Origin: a bacterium
GTDB taxonomy: Bacteria; Armatimonadota; UBA5829
DNA length: 64,000 nt
Direction: 5' to 3'
Assembly (NCBI GenBank): GCA_021371935.1
Contig: JAJFVF010000022.1
Coordinates: 1-64,000, forward strand
In this document: positions 3,215 to 15,300 of the stretch, one piece after another
Numbering within the stretch: position 1 is the stretch's first letter
How the letters are laid out: each line of letters opens with the position of its first letter
Made by a program: the position numbers and the translations under genes
Notes under the pieces: generated by a model
What the model saw: only the letters and a program-made list of their open reading frames with translations
Told to the model about the DNA's origin: nothing
Databases searched by the model: none

Positions 3215-5328
3215 CTATGACGATTATACTTCAGGAAGCGATATGTGCCAACTCCGCAGATCGTGCCGACACCGATGAGCATAAGGTACAGGCCGAAATA
3301 GAATGCGCGGAAGCCCATGGTCCATTTCGGGGGCTGTGCATGAATATAGTTGAGCGATTTATAGATGCGAACTCCGTCAATCGTATTGATCAGTTTGAGT
3401 GAAGCATCATTTATCTCATCACGTGACAAGATATACTTCGCTGCGCGGCCTACATCCGGCGTGTATCTGCGCATTAGCACCATATTGCCGTTTTCCTGTG
3501 GGCTGGAGTCCCCGCCCTGAATCCTGCTCGACCAGTCCTTATATGACTTTGTGAACAACGAATCGTATCCTTGCATATCATACAGCCCGTAGACCATTGC
3601 GGCATTTGGCGGAAGAATGGCATCGGGAGTATTGTATAGGCTCCAGTTCGGATTGATCGGCGCTATGCGCGAGCCGTCCATTGTTAGTGACTGGAGTTTC
3701 TTCGTAAGTGGCGTATCGGGATACACTTTTGATCGGGAACATGTGGGATTATAGTTGACTCCAAAAGCGAAGAGGTCGGCAGCAATTAAGACAACAACCA
3801 TCACGGGATACATAGAGCGGGCGACAGTGTCTCTACTTCTCGCAAGCAGCAGACCCAGCGAAACCAGAATCAAAACCGTGAATATTCTTCCATTTGGACC
3901 GGCCAGACCAGAAAATGATTTGCCTATGATACCTGCAATATAACTTGCACCCAGTATATTTGTTATGGCAAAAAACACTCCGACAATCAAAAAAGCAAAT
4001 AGTGCGGCGAGTTCACCCCACATCAATTCCCTGCCCCGCACACACACTTTCTCCTGCGCGCGTTCAGCAAAATAATCCGCTCCAAAGCCTGCCATTACGG
4101 CTATGCTGAAGAAATAAAGAAGCAAGATCCTGTTGGGTCCGCCGAAAGCACTAAAGCCTGGTATGAAGAAGTAAAAAGGCGCATTTATAGGTGTGCCCAG
4201 AGCACATAGCAGCGCAAATAGTGCAAGAAAAGCAAAGAAACCTATGCACGGCTTGTCTTTTACCCGGCCAAGCGAGATTATCGCAAACATCAATGGCAAT
4301 ATGCCTATATACAGTCCGTACTCCATAAAATCAGCGGCGCTGCCCAGGAAATATGTGTTTTTGCTCGGATTACCGAAGAAATTGGGGACGAACATAGTAA
4401 TTAAGCGATACGGTTTCAGGGCGTTGCCGATAAACCAAGCATAACCCGCACCCGTTACCTGCCTGATACGATGGGAGTGCTGCGCAAGATCATGACTTGG
4501 AAGTATCTGCGGAGCCGATATGAGAAACGCAATCGCCACAAACACAACGAATTGAAGCATGGCATATTTTGCAGAATTATTCAGACCATCTGACCGCCAC
4601 TTGCCGATACACTTCCATATCCACCAGAGCACAGACGCCATAGCTACATAAAACGCTATCTGGAAGTGACCGGCCAAAAATGCCAAACCCAAAGATCCCC
4701 CGGCGAGCATTGCATAAAAAGTGGATCGTTTCTCGACAGACCTGTGTATAAGAAAAAGTGTTAAAGGTAGATATACTGCTACACTTATAAAAGTCGGCAG
4801 TTCCAGCCACAGCACAATAAATGCGCTGAATGTAAAGCATATCGCCGATACTATACCGCCCAGCAGCCCTGCGCCGAGTTCACGCATAAACTTATAGGTG
4901 AACACCTGAGCCAGAAACAGGTGCAGTGCGGCAAATATAGTAAATGCGGTGATCGGATCGAAGATCAAAAACAGCAGATTGCCCGGATAGAGCACTGCCG
5001 ACTGGCCGTTCGCCTGGAACGGTGTGCCGCAGAACTGATGTGGGTTCCACAACGGAATATGACCTGCTCGTATCGATTCGGCATAGAAAACTCGCCATGG
5101 GTAAAACTGAGCGATTGCGTCCCACTGCAGAGCGTTCCACTGAGGAGGCGGACTTGTGGGTTTTGTGACGCTGTTCCATGGAGACATCTGAGCCAGATAA
5201 TCGCCAGGCAGCAGAGCATCTCCTCTAAATATAGGCCTCCAGAGGAATATGCACACCAGTATCAAAAACAGCACATACGGCAGTAGGCCTTTGATCCTAA
5301 TACTTTTAGTGTCCTTGTCCAAGTCCAA
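3211..5328 (-). CDS. YfhO-like membrane protein
   Basis: The 705-residue protein has the YfhO layout: one N-terminal membrane helix, a loop with FYPWR and IPLWNP motifs typical of the family, about a dozen further helices and a C-terminal soluble region of roughly 150 residues before a last helix. YfhO relatives take part in glycosylating lipoteichoic acid or other envelope polymers. There is no ATG near the start. The TTG given here lacks a convincing ribosome binding site, so the true start may lie slightly downstream. It overlaps the end of the upstream SMR-like gene by 23 bp. Confidence 0.8.
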   Translation of the reverse strand: MDLDKDTKSIRIKGLLPYVLFLILVCIFLWRPIFRGDALLPGDYLAQMSPWNSVTKPTSPPPQWNALQWDAIAQFYPWRVFYAESIRAGHIPLWNPHQFCGTPFQANGQSAVLYPGNLLFLIFDPITAFTIFAALHLFLAQVFTYKFMRELGAGLLGGIVSAICFTFSAFIVLWLELPTFISVAVYLPLTLFLIHRSVEKRSTFYAMLAGGSLGLAFLAGHFQIAFYVAMASVLWWIWKCIGKWRSDGLNNSAKYAMLQFVVFVAIAFLISAPQILPSHDLAQHSHRIRQVTGAGYAWFIGNALKPYRLITMFVPNFFGNPSKNTYFLGSAADFMEYGLYIGILPLMFAIISLGRVKDKPCIGFFAFLALFALLCALGTPINAPFYFFIPGFSAFGGPNRILLLYFFSIAVMAGFGADYFAERAQEKVCVRGRELMWGELAALFAFLIVGVFFAITNILGASYIAGIIGKSFSGLAGPNGRIFTVLILVSLGLLLARSRDTVARSMYPVMVVVLIAADLFAFGVNYNPTCSRSKVYPDTPLTKKLQSLTMDGSRIAPINPNWSLYNTPDAILPPNAAMVYGLYDMQGYDSLFTKSYKDWSSRIQGGDSSPQENGNMVLMRRYTPDVGRAAKYILSRDEINDASLKLINTIDGVRIYKSLNYIHAQPPKWTMGFRAFYFGLYLMLIGVGTICGVGTYRFLKYNRHR

Positions 5329-5707
5329 ACCCGATAAATGAAACCCCGGCGGAGATGAAAAACAGCCCCAGCCCCGCCAGTTTCCAGTTGACCCGTTCCT
5401 TCAAAACAGTTGCCGATAGAATCACGACCAGAAAATAGCTGATGCTGAGCATCGGATAAGCCACGCTCAATCTCACTTTGCTGAGCACCAGTATCCATAA
5501 AAATGCGCTTATCACATATAAAAATAATCCGGTCAGAACGCGTGGAGTAAACATCGCGCGCACGATGTTGAAAAGCGTCTTGACTATGGAATCGCCGATT
5601 AGGTTAACATTGCCAAGACCCAGTTTTTGCAGCACCTGTGCGGTCGCCATCAGTGTGACCGATGCGCACATCAAACCGAATGAACCTAGTGTGAGATTGC
5701 CCTGCAC
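5306..5707 (-). CDS. small four-helix transporter (EamA/SMR, ArnE-like)
   Basis: This is a 133-residue protein with four membrane helices, matching the small EamA/SMR proteins that flip undecaprenyl- or polyprenyl-linked sugars (ArnE/ArnF type). A VLKERVNW segment between the last two helices is characteristic. The GTG start follows the TAA of the upstream paralogue directly and has GGAGGG seven bases before it. The two paralogues share the N-terminal QGNLT motif and most helices, so they may form a heterodimer. With the glycosyltransferase-like genes downstream, a lipid-sugar flippase role is the best inference. Confidence 0.75.
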   Translation of the reverse strand: MQGNLTLGSFGLMCASVTLMATAQVLQKLGLGNVNLIGDSIVKTLFNIVRAMFTPRVLTGLFLYVISAFLWILVLSKVRLSVAYPMLSISYFLVVILSATVLKERVNWKLAGLGLFFISAGVSFIGFGLGQGH

Positions 5708-6133
5708 TTAACTGCCCTCCTGAGTGGGCTTTTCTTTCGCCTGGCCCAATCCTACACCTATGAAAGATACTCCTATTGAAATGAGAGCCAGACCGACGCC
5801 GGCCAGCATCCAGTTCACTTGTTCATGAAGCATGCACCCCGAAAGTATCACCACCAGAATATAGCTCATGCTTATCAGTGGATATGCGACACTCAGCCTT
5901 ACTTTGCTGAGCACGACAATCCAAAACAGAGTGCTGACCACATACAGCCCAAGCCCAAGGAGCACATATGGAGCCATCATCGCGTGAAGAATATTGATGA
6001 AAGTCTGCATCATCGAGCTTGACGCCAGCTTCTTTGCGCCGAGGCCGAGCTTGAGAAATACCTGGCCGAATGCACCGAGGGTTATTGCAATACAGATGAT
6101 GCCGAATGAAGCCGGAGTGAGATTGCCCTGCAC
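5708..6133 (-). CDS. small four-helix transporter (EamA/SMR, ArnF-like)
   Basis: This 141-residue protein is a paralogue of the next gene, with four helices and a LHEQVNW segment at the matching place. A longer reading frame exists upstream, but the GTG at 6133 has GGAGG nine bases before it and lines up exactly with the start of the paralogue, so it is chosen. It is the first gene of the membrane operon. A TATAAT lies at 6170-6165 upstream, with only a weak -35 (TTTCCT) at 17-bp spacing. A heterodimeric lipid-sugar flippase with its partner is inferred. Confidence 0.75.
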   Translation of the reverse strand: MQGNLTPASFGIICIAITLGAFGQVFLKLGLGAKKLASSSMMQTFINILHAMMAPYVLLGLGLYVVSTLFWIVVLSKVRLSVAYPLISMSYILVVILSGCMLHEQVNWMLAGVGLALISIGVSFIGVGLGQAKEKPTQEGS

Positions 6134-6214
6134 GAGCAGTAACCTCCAAAATAGTGTTGACTCAATTATAGACCAAGATGGGGATTTAGGAAAGTCTGAA
6201 GTCAAAACAAAGGA

Positions 6215-6245
6215 CGTCCGGGGCAAGAATACCCCGGACGATCAA
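6215..6245. repeat. 31-bp palindromic direct repeat, left copy
   Basis: The 31-bp sequence contains CGTCCGGGG and CCCCGGACG arms around an eight-base loop. The identical sequence recurs at 7267-7297, on the other side of the metallo-hydrolase gene. No T-run follows, so it is not an ordinary terminator. Confidence 0.9.
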
Positions 6246-6310
6246 GATCAAGGTAATCGTAAGTCCACTAAGTATAGGCCAGTATTTGTTGCACTTTGGG
6301 AACTGTTTCT

Positions 6311-6339
6311 TTGTACTCAACAATGCAAGATGATATACT
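6311..6339 (+). promoter_or_regulatory. promoter of metallo-hydrolase gene, probably leaderless
   Basis: TTGTAC (6311-6316), a 17-bp spacer and TATACT (6334-6339) form a good promoter. The ATG at 6346 begins only seven bases after the -10 box, so transcription would start at or next to the A of the start codon. No ribosome binding site precedes it. Confidence 0.7.
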
Positions 6340-6345
6340 GTTTAT

Positions 6346-7194
6346 ATGAAAATAATTTTTTTAGGGACTGCTGCTGCAACTTCATATCCTTTGGCTTTTT
6401 GCCAATGTGATTATTGCAAAGAGGCAAGAAAACTAGGAGGAAAAAATCTAAGAAAAAGGTCGTCGATAATCATTAACGACGATCTACTTATAGATTTGGG
6501 GCCAGACGTATTATCTGCTTCATTTATGTATAATAAATCAATTGCCGATATTAGGTACTGTCTGCAAACCCATCCTCATTCTGACCATTTTGATCCTTCA
6601 CATCTTACAACTCGAATACCGGAATATATGGGAGTAAGTACCCCGCCACTAGAGATTTATGCATCTTTGGCAACCCTAACAAAGATGTCTGAAATGCTCA
6701 AGAATGAAGGCTACGTTGCAGACCTGTTTGATCTTAAAGAACAGAAGAAAATGAACCTCAAAATTAATCCAGTAGTTTCCCAGCAAACTTTCGTGGCAGG
6801 TAGTTATAAAATCACGGCATTTTCGAGCGACCACGACAAATCCGCAGATTCACTCATTTATAGTATATCTGAAGATGATTTTACCTTACTTTATGCAACT
6901 GATACCGATTCATTTCGCAAAGACGTCATAACAAGCTTTGTTAATAAGAAGATGCGTTTTAATGTCGTTATTTTAGACCATACCTACGGTCCAAACGCTG
7001 ATAGTGGAGGTCATCTTAATGCAAATAGATTTATTGAGCAATTAGAGCTGCTTAAAGAGCAAAACCTATTATCAGATAATGCCCGAATACTCGCAACACA
7101 TATATCACATGAAGGAAACCCTCCATATACAGAGCTTTCTAATTATGCTAAGCAGTTTGGATACGAAATTGCATATGATGGTATGGCGGTCTGA
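6346..7194 (+). CDS. MBL-fold metallo-hydrolase (PhnP-like)
   Basis: The 282-residue protein has the metallo-beta-lactamase fold signature THPHSDHFD (HxHxDH metal site), a later FSSDHD histidine region, ATDTD, and a C-terminal THISHEG. A CxCxxC cluster near residues 19-24 resembles the structural zinc site of PhnP-type cyclic phosphodiesterases, so a phosphodiesterase on a small cyclic phosphate is likely. It stands alone on the plus strand between two minus-strand operons. Two 60-base lines that I counted in it have 35% and 40% G+C, against 58% in a sampled lpxD line. With the identical flanking repeats this suggests acquisition. Confidence 0.8.
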   Translation: MKIIFLGTAAATSYPLAFCQCDYCKEARKLGGKNLRKRSSIIINDDLLIDLGPDVLSASFMYNKSIADIRYCLQTHPHSDHFDPSHLTTRIPEYMGVSTPPLEIYASLATLTKMSEMLKNEGYVADLFDLKEQKKMNLKINPVVSQQTFVAGSYKITAFSSDHDKSADSLIYSISEDDFTLLYATDTDSFRKDVITSFVNKKMRFNVVILDHTYGPNADSGGHLNANRFIEQLELLKEQNLLSDNARILATHISHEGNPPYTELSNYAKQFGYEIAYDGMAV

Positions 7195-7266
7195 TAGGGA
7201 ATTGGCTCTGGGAATACCTCGGACGATATATATCAAGATTTAAGAAATATGAGGTAGAAACAAAAC

Positions 7267-7297
7267 CGTCCGGGGCAAGAATACCCCGGACGATCAA
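7267..7297. repeat. 31-bp palindromic direct repeat, right copy
   Basis: This copy is identical over 31 bp to 6215-6245. A degenerate third piece (GGGAATACCTCGGACGATA) lies just upstream, at about 7211-7229. The copies bracket the metallo-hydrolase gene. Confidence 0.9.
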
Positions 7298-7324
7298 AAT
7301 AGGAAGTAGGTAATAGGAATTAGG

Positions 7325-7392
7325 AAACAGGTAATAGTGTGCAAGTTGCACCACCTATTTCCTAATACCTGATCCCTATTACCTGTTTTTTT
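7325..7392 (+). terminator. long hairpin with T-tract after metallo-hydrolase gene
   Basis: AAACAGGTAATAG (7325-7337) pairs with CTATTACCTGTTT (7376-7388), which runs into a seven-T tract on the plus strand. A GTGCAAGTTGCAC palindrome sits inside the loop. The surrounding bases (7302-7391) are built from repeated TAATAGGAATTAGG-like words. It could terminate the plus-strand gene; the long loop makes this uncertain. Confidence 0.5.
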
Positions 7393-8026
7393 ACGCTATC
7401 TTGAGAAGTTCTTTTGCCTTGTCGACTGCGCTCGCCGCATCAGGAGCATAGCCGTCGGCATTGATCTCGTCGGCATAGTTCTGAGTGACTGGAGCGCCGC
7501 CGATCATAACAGAGATCCTGTCACGGACTCCCTCATTTTTCATCGCCTCAATGGTCTCTTTCATTGCAGGCATGGTGGTCGTCAACAAAGCAGAAAGCGC
7601 GACAAGGTCTGCGCCGTCCTTAATCGCCTGAACAAACGTCTGAGGCTTTACGTCGACGCCGAGATCGACAATTTCAAAACCGGCGCCCTCAAGCATCATC
7701 GCGACCAGGTTCTTGCCGATATCGTGAAGGTCACCGCTTACCGTGCCTATCGCAACCTTGCCCTTGGCCTCGACACCACTCGAAGCCAGTTTCGGACGAA
7801 GTACCTCCATTGCCATCTTCATAGCACGAGCGGCAATCAACACTTCCGGTACATAGAACTCATTGTTCTTGAACTTTGCGCCCACAACATTCATACCGGC
7901 CACAAGACCGTTATTCAGAATGTCACCGGGGTTCATCCCCTCGGCAAGCGCATTCTCTGTAATCTCTTTTGCGTCCGGCGCTTTGCCATTGATTATGGCC
8001 TGCGCCAGTGCTTCCATATCAGCCAA
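7391..8026 (-). CDS. methyltransferase-associated corrinoid protein
   Basis: The 211-residue protein has the N-terminal helical cap and C-terminal Rossmann B12-binding domain of MtaC/MtbC/MttC-type corrinoid proteins. The DxHxxG motif (DLHDIG) places the lower axial cobalt ligand at His101, followed by the expected GGAPV segment near the C terminus. Such proteins carry a methyl group between a substrate-specific methyltransferase and a methyl acceptor. The TTG start has AAGGAGG seven bases upstream and is preferred to any ATG. The gene has its own promoter, and the reductive activator lies just upstream. No substrate methyltransferase is present in the window. Confidence 0.92.
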   Translation of the reverse strand: MADMEALAQAIINGKAPDAKEITENALAEGMNPGDILNNGLVAGMNVVGAKFKNNEFYVPEVLIAARAMKMAMEVLRPKLASSGVEAKGKVAIGTVSGDLHDIGKNLVAMMLEGAGFEIVDLGVDVKPQTFVQAIKDGADLVALSALLTTTMPAMKETIEAMKNEGVRDRISVMIGGAPVTQNYADEINADGYAPDAASAVDKAKELLKIA

Positions 8027-12314: not shown

Positions 12315-15300
12315 ATGAAGCTTATGCACCTGATGATCTTGGTCAGCATATTAATGACATTTGCTCAGGCACAAACGGCAGAGGCTGCCAGTCCACCTCA
12401 GCCCACATACGGCACAGCAGTCGTCGATGGGGATATCAGCGAATGGGACCTCACTAACGATTTCTTCGCCAACATGTATCGGGCGGGTAACCCGGCATTC
12501 AAAGTCGAGTCCAAGGCATATTTGCGGTATGATTGCAATACTCATACGCTTTATGTGCTGGTATTGGCCGTGCCGGGTGTCAAAGCGCTGGCTCAAGGAT
12601 GGGAAACAGCTGCATGGGGAGCTATAGGAACTGTCGCCAATAAAGTATATACCGGAAACTCGGGAAACCCTCCCACACCACCGCAGTTTGCCTGGGTCAA
12701 CCAGAGCGCTGATAAGCTGACAGCCGATGGATATGAGGCATCTTTCATAATCACTCCCGGCACTCCGACTTCACCGGCATTCTATTCGCTGTTCTTGCAC
12801 GTTGAAGTATATGATGAAAACACAAGTCATACTTCAGCCACTTCGGGATCTCCCAGAACAGGCATACCTCTGGAGCTTATATGCTGCGATGCGTCTATTG
12901 ATCTTCAAAAATCGTATACATGGACCACGGGAAACGGATCGCACGTCGGCGATGTTGTGACATATACCTATACCGTTACAAATACAGGCAACGGGCCTTT
13001 GAATTCAATCACAGTTGATGATGATGTATTCGGATCGATCACTTTGGCAAGCACAACACTTAACCCGGGTGAAAGTACTACGGGCAATGCAACGCTGACA
13101 TTGACACAGGAACTGCTGGATATCGGATTCCAGATAAATACAGCTGATGCAAGCGGCACGACGCCTATTGGCTGTGTCGTGACCGACTCGGCCACTCAGA
13201 CAGTCACATTTTTGACGACACCATCGATCGAGGTCGTAAAAGACTATGAGTGGACCACTGGAAATGGCTCTCATGTCGGCGATGTAGTTACATATACATA
13301 TACTGTTACTAATACCGGCAACGTGACACTCGACCCGGTCTCGCTGACTGATGACAAGTACGGCACAATCACTCTTGCGGTGACCAGCCTTGCGCCTGGA
13401 GAATATACTACCGGCACGGCAACTCTCACTCTCACCCAGGAACTGCTGGATGCTGGGTCACAGACCAATGTCGCCACCGCCACCGGCACGCCGCCGACAG
13501 GACCGGATGTCACCAATACGGCCACAAAGACGGTGACGTTTATCACGACACCGGCAATCCATATAATAAAGACATTTGAGTGGACCAAAGGAGACGGTAC
13601 TCAAGTCGGTGATGAGGTGACATATACCTATACGGTCACGAACGCGGGTAATGTCACTCTGGACCCCGTAAGCGTATCTGACGACCAGTTTGGTAATATC
13701 ACCCTGCTCGATACCAGTCTGTCTCCCGGAGAGTCAACGACGGGGACCAAGGTGCTTGTTGTGACGCAGGAACTTTTGGATCAAGGCACGCTGACAAATA
13801 TCGCAACTGCTACCGGCACACCGCCAAGCGGACCTGATGTTACAGATACAGACAGTCAGACAGTCACATTCGGCGGAGGAGCGTCCATCGACATCAAAAA
13901 GACATACGAATGGACCACAGGAGACGGCTCACACGTAGGTGATGTGGTGACATACACCTTTACCGTCAAGAATACCGGCACTGTAACACTCGACCCTGTG
14001 AGCGTTACGGATGACGTATTCGGCTCAATCACCCTGTCCGCAACCAGCCTTGCTCCGGGAGAGTCCGCCACCGGCACAGCTACACTGACACTGACACAAG
14101 AACTGCTGGACGCCGGATCGGAGACTAACACAGCCACAGCCACAGGCACGCCGCCCAGCGGACCCGATGTCACAGAAACATCCACACAAATAGTCACGTT
14201 TCTTACGACACCGGCAATAAAACTCGTAAAGGACTTCGCATGGACGACCGGAGACGGCTCTCATGTGGGCGACGTGGTCACATACACTTATACTGTGACT
14301 AATGAAGGCAACGTGACACTCGATCCGGTATCCGTGAGTGACGATAAACTGGGAAGCATTACACTGCTTGCCACAAGTCTGGCACCGGGTGAATCAACTA
14401 CCGGCACGGCAACTCTGACACTTACTCAGGAACTGCTGGACGCTGGATCGCAGACAAATACTGCAACAGCAACCGGCACACCGCCAAGCGGACCTGATGT
14501 GACAAGCACATCGACTCGTACGGTCACATTCATCACTTCACCGGCTATCGATATTCAAAAGACATTTGAATGGACTACAGGAAATGGCTCTCATGTGGGT
14601 GATGTTGTGACATATACATACACTGTTACTAATACTGGCAATGTGACTCTGAATCCCGTATCAGTAACCGACGACATACTCGGCACAATTACTCTACTGG
14701 ACACAAACCTGGCGCCGGGCGAGTCGACTACCGGCACGGCAACTCTGACACTTACTCAGGAACTGCTGGACGCTGGGTCACAGACTAATATTGCAACCGC
14801 CACCGGCACACCGCCAAGCGGACCTGATATCACAGAAGCGACATCTCAAACAGTCAACTTCCTGCAAATCCATAACATCGGTCTGGTGAAATATGTTTCT
14901 GTTGACGGAGGCACGACCTGGATCGATGCCAATACACCGCCCGGACCAAGTGTGCTGATCGGCAATACGGTCGATTACAGATACGACGTCACCAACACAG
15001 GCAATGTTACACTCACTGACCTCACTCTGATCGACGACAAACTCGGTCCTATCCCTTTGAGCCCAACTACATTGGCTCCGCAAGGTTCACTTACAGTTTA
15101 TGACAGCACAACAGCATTGAGCGGATTGAACACAAATATCGCCACGGCTACTGGAACACCACCGATAGGACCTGATGTGCAGGTCACCGATCCGGCTAAC
15201 TACACTGGAAAAGACTCATTATTCTGGCTGCCTCAGGCATGTGAGACAATAATTGCCGGTCCGAGTCAGTACTTCATGGGCTATCTTGGTGTAGAATCCG

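Follow-up and report, generated by a model that had tools for sequence, protein, structure and literature searches.

Introduction

RAYT-associated REPs, including the arrangements described as REPtrons, are short palindromes scattered across spacers, frequently in doublets, with a RAYT gene flanked by members of its own family (PMC2817692, PMC8266576). Two REP superfamilies, GTAG and CGTC, have been described, and the CGTC superfamily was described without a transposase (PMC3733652). REPs also serve as targets of insertion sequences (PMC1525189), as illustrated by ISPpu9 (PMC8450116). Small variable segments, mainly 20-500 bp, are likewise found between direct repeats of <30 bp (PMC2884548). 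Regions of Pseudomonas genomes whose composition is atypical tend to be without REPs (PMC3390384), and on that basis a foreign single gene with a REP at either edge would be less expected. Our literature search, whose coverage was incomplete, found no description of REP-bracketed single foreign genes without a transposase.

Here, we analyzed a window of 64,000 nucleotides (the whole stretch of DNA under study) from a genome of ~3.5 Mb, G000, and compared it with G004, the genome of a sister species; C3, C8, C9, C19 and C21 denote G000 contigs. The REP family in G000 resembles that of REPtrons in its dispersal through spacers, its doublets and its association with a RAYT. It differs in that the tail is ATC rather than GTAG, the copy number is below the usual >100, and two copies bracket an unrelated, apparently foreign gene. 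The palindrome starts with CGTC, as in the CGTC superfamily; here, however, CGTC is mirrored and pairs with GACG in the stem instead of forming a one-sided, unpaired end tag, a CCA-like tail was not found, and the family flanks a transposase gene. As at REPs targeted by insertion sequences, REP sites appear to attract insertions, but the G000 inserts are single non-transposase genes with a REP on each side. The locus shares with small variable segments (PMC2884548) a variable stretch flanked by short direct repeats, but in G000 the variable stretches are whole genes and the repeat is a dispersed REP. These features bear on the cellular role of REPs and domesticated transposases, and on how single genes that lack an integrase enter chromosomes.

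Two copies of a palindrome bracket a single plus-strand gene

An initial annotation of this locus reported a lone plus-strand gene amid minus-strand genes, with an identical 31-bp hairpin on both sides and a degenerate third piece, and all of these elements were found again (Table 1). The two REP copies (CGTCCGGGGCAAGAATACCCCGGACGATCAA) are in the same orientation, 1052 nt apart from start to start, and 97% identical when extended to 34 nt. Each contains a 26-nt core palindrome, CGTCCGGGGCAAGAATACCCCGGACG (6215-6240 and 7267-7292), that forms a 9-bp stem with an 8-nt loop. Their predicted folding energies as single-stranded DNA are -12.1 and -11.8 kcal/mol (z -5.5 and -5.9 versus shuffles), and the palindrome had no match when the window was dinucleotide-shuffled 100 times. 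The degenerate piece (GAATACCTCGGACGAT) has no fold of its own (z +1.2). The sequences immediately left of the two REPs also resemble each other (~79% identity, p 0.001-0.003 in dinucleotide shuffles), which hints, tentatively, that REPs 1 and 2 may be part of a longer duplicated segment.

Table 1 Features of the REP-bracketed locus (positions in the window)
Feature	Position	Strand	Basis or remark
Left anchor gene, EamA/EmrE-like small membrane protein	5708..6133	-	paralog of 5306-5707
Segment left of REP 1, ~29 nt	6183..6211	+	resembles 28 nt left of REP 2
REP copy 1	6215..6245	+	arms 6215-6223 and 6232-6240, then conserved ATCAA tail
PhnP-like MBL-fold hydrolase gene, 282 aa	6346..7194	+	PF12706, TIGR03307 (below cut-off), PDB 3g1p, composition, tree
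Degenerate REP piece, right half of REP	7212..7227	+	15/16 nt match to REP copy 1
REP copy 2	7267..7297	+	31 nt identical to copy 1
Right anchor gene, methyltransferase-type corrinoid protein	7391..8026	-	profile matches; 94% identity to G004

For the left anchor gene, a GTG start at 6133 is likelier than a TTG at 6226, which lies within the REP. This gene and its neighbor form a tandem pair of EamA/EmrE-like paralogs (5306-6133), an arrangement that is conserved across the family. Directly after REP 2, at 7296-7389, is a second repeat family made of heptad-like units (GGTAATAGG/GGAAATAG) in a long imperfect inverted repeat. In genome G001, the corresponding spacer holds a similar repeat on its own, and related units are present elsewhere in the genus. 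The only match to known RNA families in the window was one tRNA.

The bracketed gene encodes a PhnP-like hydrolase and was probably acquired horizontally

The sole gene between the REPs had been annotated as an AT-richer metallo-hydrolase. Its product matches PF12706 (3.7e-12; 46.7 bits versus a Pfam cut-off of 27), which places it in the MBL fold. The nearest profile is that of PhnP (TIGR03307; 1.9e-14), although the score of 53.7 bits is far below the equivalog cut-off of 272.25, so the protein does not qualify as PhnP itself. Like PhnP-type MBL-fold phosphodiesterases, it has MBL motifs (THPHSDH) and an N-terminal CxCxxC, and PhnP (3g1p) was its only PDB match; unlike them, it belongs to a rare separate clade and has no phosphonate genes beside it. 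The enzyme is probably a metal-dependent phosphodiesterase.

The composition of the gene is an outlier, with a GC of 37.5% versus a mean of 50.4% for the 49 open reading frames of the window (z -3.4), a GC3 of 0.301 versus 0.545 (z -3.65) and a codon-usage score at z -3.85, each the lowest of the 49. The G+C values sampled for the initial annotation were thus rough but correct in direction. A search of 291 genomes from the phylum found this version of the gene in only one (E<=1e-45), G000 itself, while most relatives have a homolog of ~30-35% identity. The closest kin, at 67% identity, come from assemblies of Wildermuthbacteria (Patescibacteria) and Anaerolineae (Chloroflexi), where their gene contexts are unrelated. 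In a phylogenetic tree, the gene and these two kin grouped with full support, and the homologs from the genus clustered elsewhere. Composition, distribution, distant kin and tree placement together argue strongly that the gene was acquired horizontally.

We also considered how it might have arrived. No close relative was found in phages, plasmids or viral contigs (27-30% identity at best) and the palindrome was absent from viral contigs, and a phage or plasmid vehicle was therefore rejected. No flanking repeats were found around the distant relatives of the gene. A role as a defence gene was rejected in the absence of a PADLOC match. Contamination of the assembly appears unlikely because the gene lies inside a 313-kb contig, with the genome's own REP on both sides of it. 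By eye, a candidate promoter (TTGTAC, 17 nt, TATACT; 6311-6346) that is absent from the list of the promoter scan ends 6 nt before the start codon; if used, it would yield a leaderless mRNA.

The sister species has one REP and no gene at the same site

In G004, the anchor genes are 94% (corrinoid) and 89% identical to those of G000, and the short spacer between them contains one REP and lacks the gene. The DNA alignment of the two genomes extends from the left anchor to the final base of REP 1, breaks off precisely there and picks up again where the corrinoid gene ends, leaving 1149 nt in G000 versus 98 nt in G004. REP copy 1 is thus likely the ortholog of the single REP in G004. None of the eight related genomes read had the gene in this spacer, and in seven of them, each with both anchors, the REP was missing there as well. 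Because G004 has one REP without the gene and the other relatives have neither, the MBL gene was most likely gained in the G000 lineage, in a spacer that already held one REP.

A history in which the gene is older than the species split and was lost from G004 by recombination between the direct REPs, leaving one behind, is improbable. Such recombination would yield exactly the single-REP state of G004, and variable segments are known to arise through deletion between short repeats on either side (PMC2884548). Yet this history requires an earlier gain as well as a loss, and leaves the origin of REPs on both sides of the gene unexplained.

The palindromes form a REP family with an associated RAYT

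Genome-wide, we found 23 copies of the palindrome with at most 3 mismatches, of which four contain the exact 26-mer. A covariance model matched at least 46 sites in G000 and at least 19 in G004, and the remaining relatives that were scanned gave few matches or none; these counts are lower bounds because 150 candidates were scored per genome. The family therefore numbers in the dozens, not the hundreds. Copies lie mostly in spacers, outside genes, and many form the second of the two hairpins in a doublet. The hairpin is conserved through compensating changes (96% of cells paired, with 7 double changes; slid controls were far lower), and the ATC tail (GAT on the opposite strand) is conserved on one side of the palindrome only. 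One exact copy (L001 1501-1526) is within a 721-codon open frame, and some copies may thus be translated.

A RAYT gene at C3:49022-49531 passes the NCBIfam model NF047646 (108 bits versus a cut-off of 80), has TnpA-REP as its best PDB match and has members of the same REP family on either side. The palindrome family and the C3 gene thus constitute a REP/RAYT arrangement, though one without a GTAG tag. G000 has a second RAYT-like gene with hairpins of its own (C19:139540-140380), which is missing from the syntenic site in G004. There, the alignments with G004 have an overlap of 38 nt, which indicates a duplication of the flank on either side of the insert.

Two further lineage-specific genes are bracketed by REPs

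Comparing REP loci between G000 and G004 revealed two more G000-specific genes with a REP on each side. At C9:142170-143733, an AICARFT-like gene, for which full-length close homologs are missing from 14 family relatives, lies between inverted REPs (32 nt, 97%). At C21:61596-62760, an M23 peptidase-like gene with no close homolog in 60 relatives lies between direct copies of the REP hairpin (29 nt, 93%); it is inserted within a REP doublet, and the hairpin found in direct orientation on both sides of it is the first of that doublet. In G004, both sites hold just one REP unit and lack the gene. Deletion in G004 between direct repeats could apply at the MBL and C21 sites, but the inverted C9 pair cannot pop out in this way.

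We compared 224 syntenic spacers that separate shared genes. Indels of 500 nt or more occurred in 4 of the 8 spacers with REPs versus 15 of the remaining 216 (Fisher p=0.002; p 0.009-0.02 after removal of short spacers). This test is small and post hoc, covering ~330 kb of aligned sequence in stretches partly chosen around REPs, and it leaves out the C9 case owing to a contig end. In the same comparison, at least seven gene-sized gains had no REP and no flanking repeat, and the dispersed REPs are mostly without cargo. Because the majority of REPs do not bracket a new gene and the majority of gains lack a REP, any association is a bias and not a rule. On C8, the genes that lie between a further pair of REPs (21835 and 23722) are ordinary in composition.

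Gene gain at this site may be coupled to the resident REP

The reading that we favor, and to which we give about an even chance, is that the PhnP-like gene was acquired horizontally into the EamA/corrinoid spacer at a resident RAYT-type REP and that its insertion was coupled to this REP. The foreign gene would have landed at the pre-existing REP, and the coupling would have left one REP on either side. The most likely route would be REP-REP recombination, in which a piece of DNA with both the gene and a REP joins the resident REP in a Campbell-type insertion, and RAYT cleavage at a REP hairpin could start such an event. Both the causal role of the REPs and the recombination route are what we infer; REP-REP recombination, RAYT action and spacers that are merely permissive are all candidate, unproven mechanisms. 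At the level of sequence, the one-REP site in G004, the foreign gene, the C9 and C21 cases, the indel association and the REP-flanked RAYT make coupling plausible. Against it stand the gains without a REP and the small, post hoc nature of the association test. Moreover, the inverted REP pair on C9 is not a simple Campbell product and, since the genes in the donor lineages lack flanking repeats, the second REP must stem from the host genome.

The initial annotation had viewed the gene as a passenger inserted with, or between, mobile palindromes. The passenger reading is supported by the foreign gene, the near-empty site in G004 and the lack of the gene in this spacer of all eight relatives; the two findings that would have spoken against it, the gene at the same place in many relatives and the palindrome at hundreds of unrelated sites, were not made. 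Insertion between palindromes also fits, with C9 and C21 as two additional cases. That the palindromes moved the gene is conjecture: the family is dispersed mostly without cargo and one REP probably predates the gene. The palindromes may nevertheless mark, or help make, entry spots for new genes. With three REP-bracketed lineage-specific genes, single-REP sites in G004 and a REP-flanked RAYT, the link can be tested directly.

The main rival to coupled insertion is coincidence in a permissive spacer, where illegitimate recombination brought the gene and the second REP arrived independently. We consider this unlikely, though it deserves serious weight. Spacers and the neighborhood of gene ends are where REPs settle, at least seven gene-sized gains proceeded without any REP, and controlling for spacer length weakens the indel association; furthermore, two identical REP copies are not rare, given how many copies share the exact 26-mer. 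Yet three REP-bracketed new genes at near-empty sites that already had a REP would be unexpected given ~46 REPs in 3.5 Mb, and the sequence left of both REPs is weakly duplicated as well.

A more general version of coupled insertion, in which REPs of the G000 lineage would act as docking sites where gene-plus-REP cassettes join resident REPs, through RAYT or REP-REP recombination, to allow gene gain free of an integrase, is quite improbable. IS200/IS605 elements have their left and right ends taken and are moved as a block. Composite transposition of this kind, with a RAYT or another HUH transposase using REPs as ends to move a REP-gene-REP unit, would suit the same-orientation REPs, which resemble IS200/IS605 end hairpins, and the presence of a RAYT flanked by the same family, but it is very improbable because the genome has a single copy of the MBL block, the three bracketed blocks contain unrelated genes, the C9 REPs are inverted, and one REP predates the gene and is retained at the G004 site.

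Elsewhere in the window, a repeat-rich protein frame at 12991-15264 contains 2.2 kb that is missing from its G004 counterpart, a difference that likely reflects gain or loss of internal repeats.
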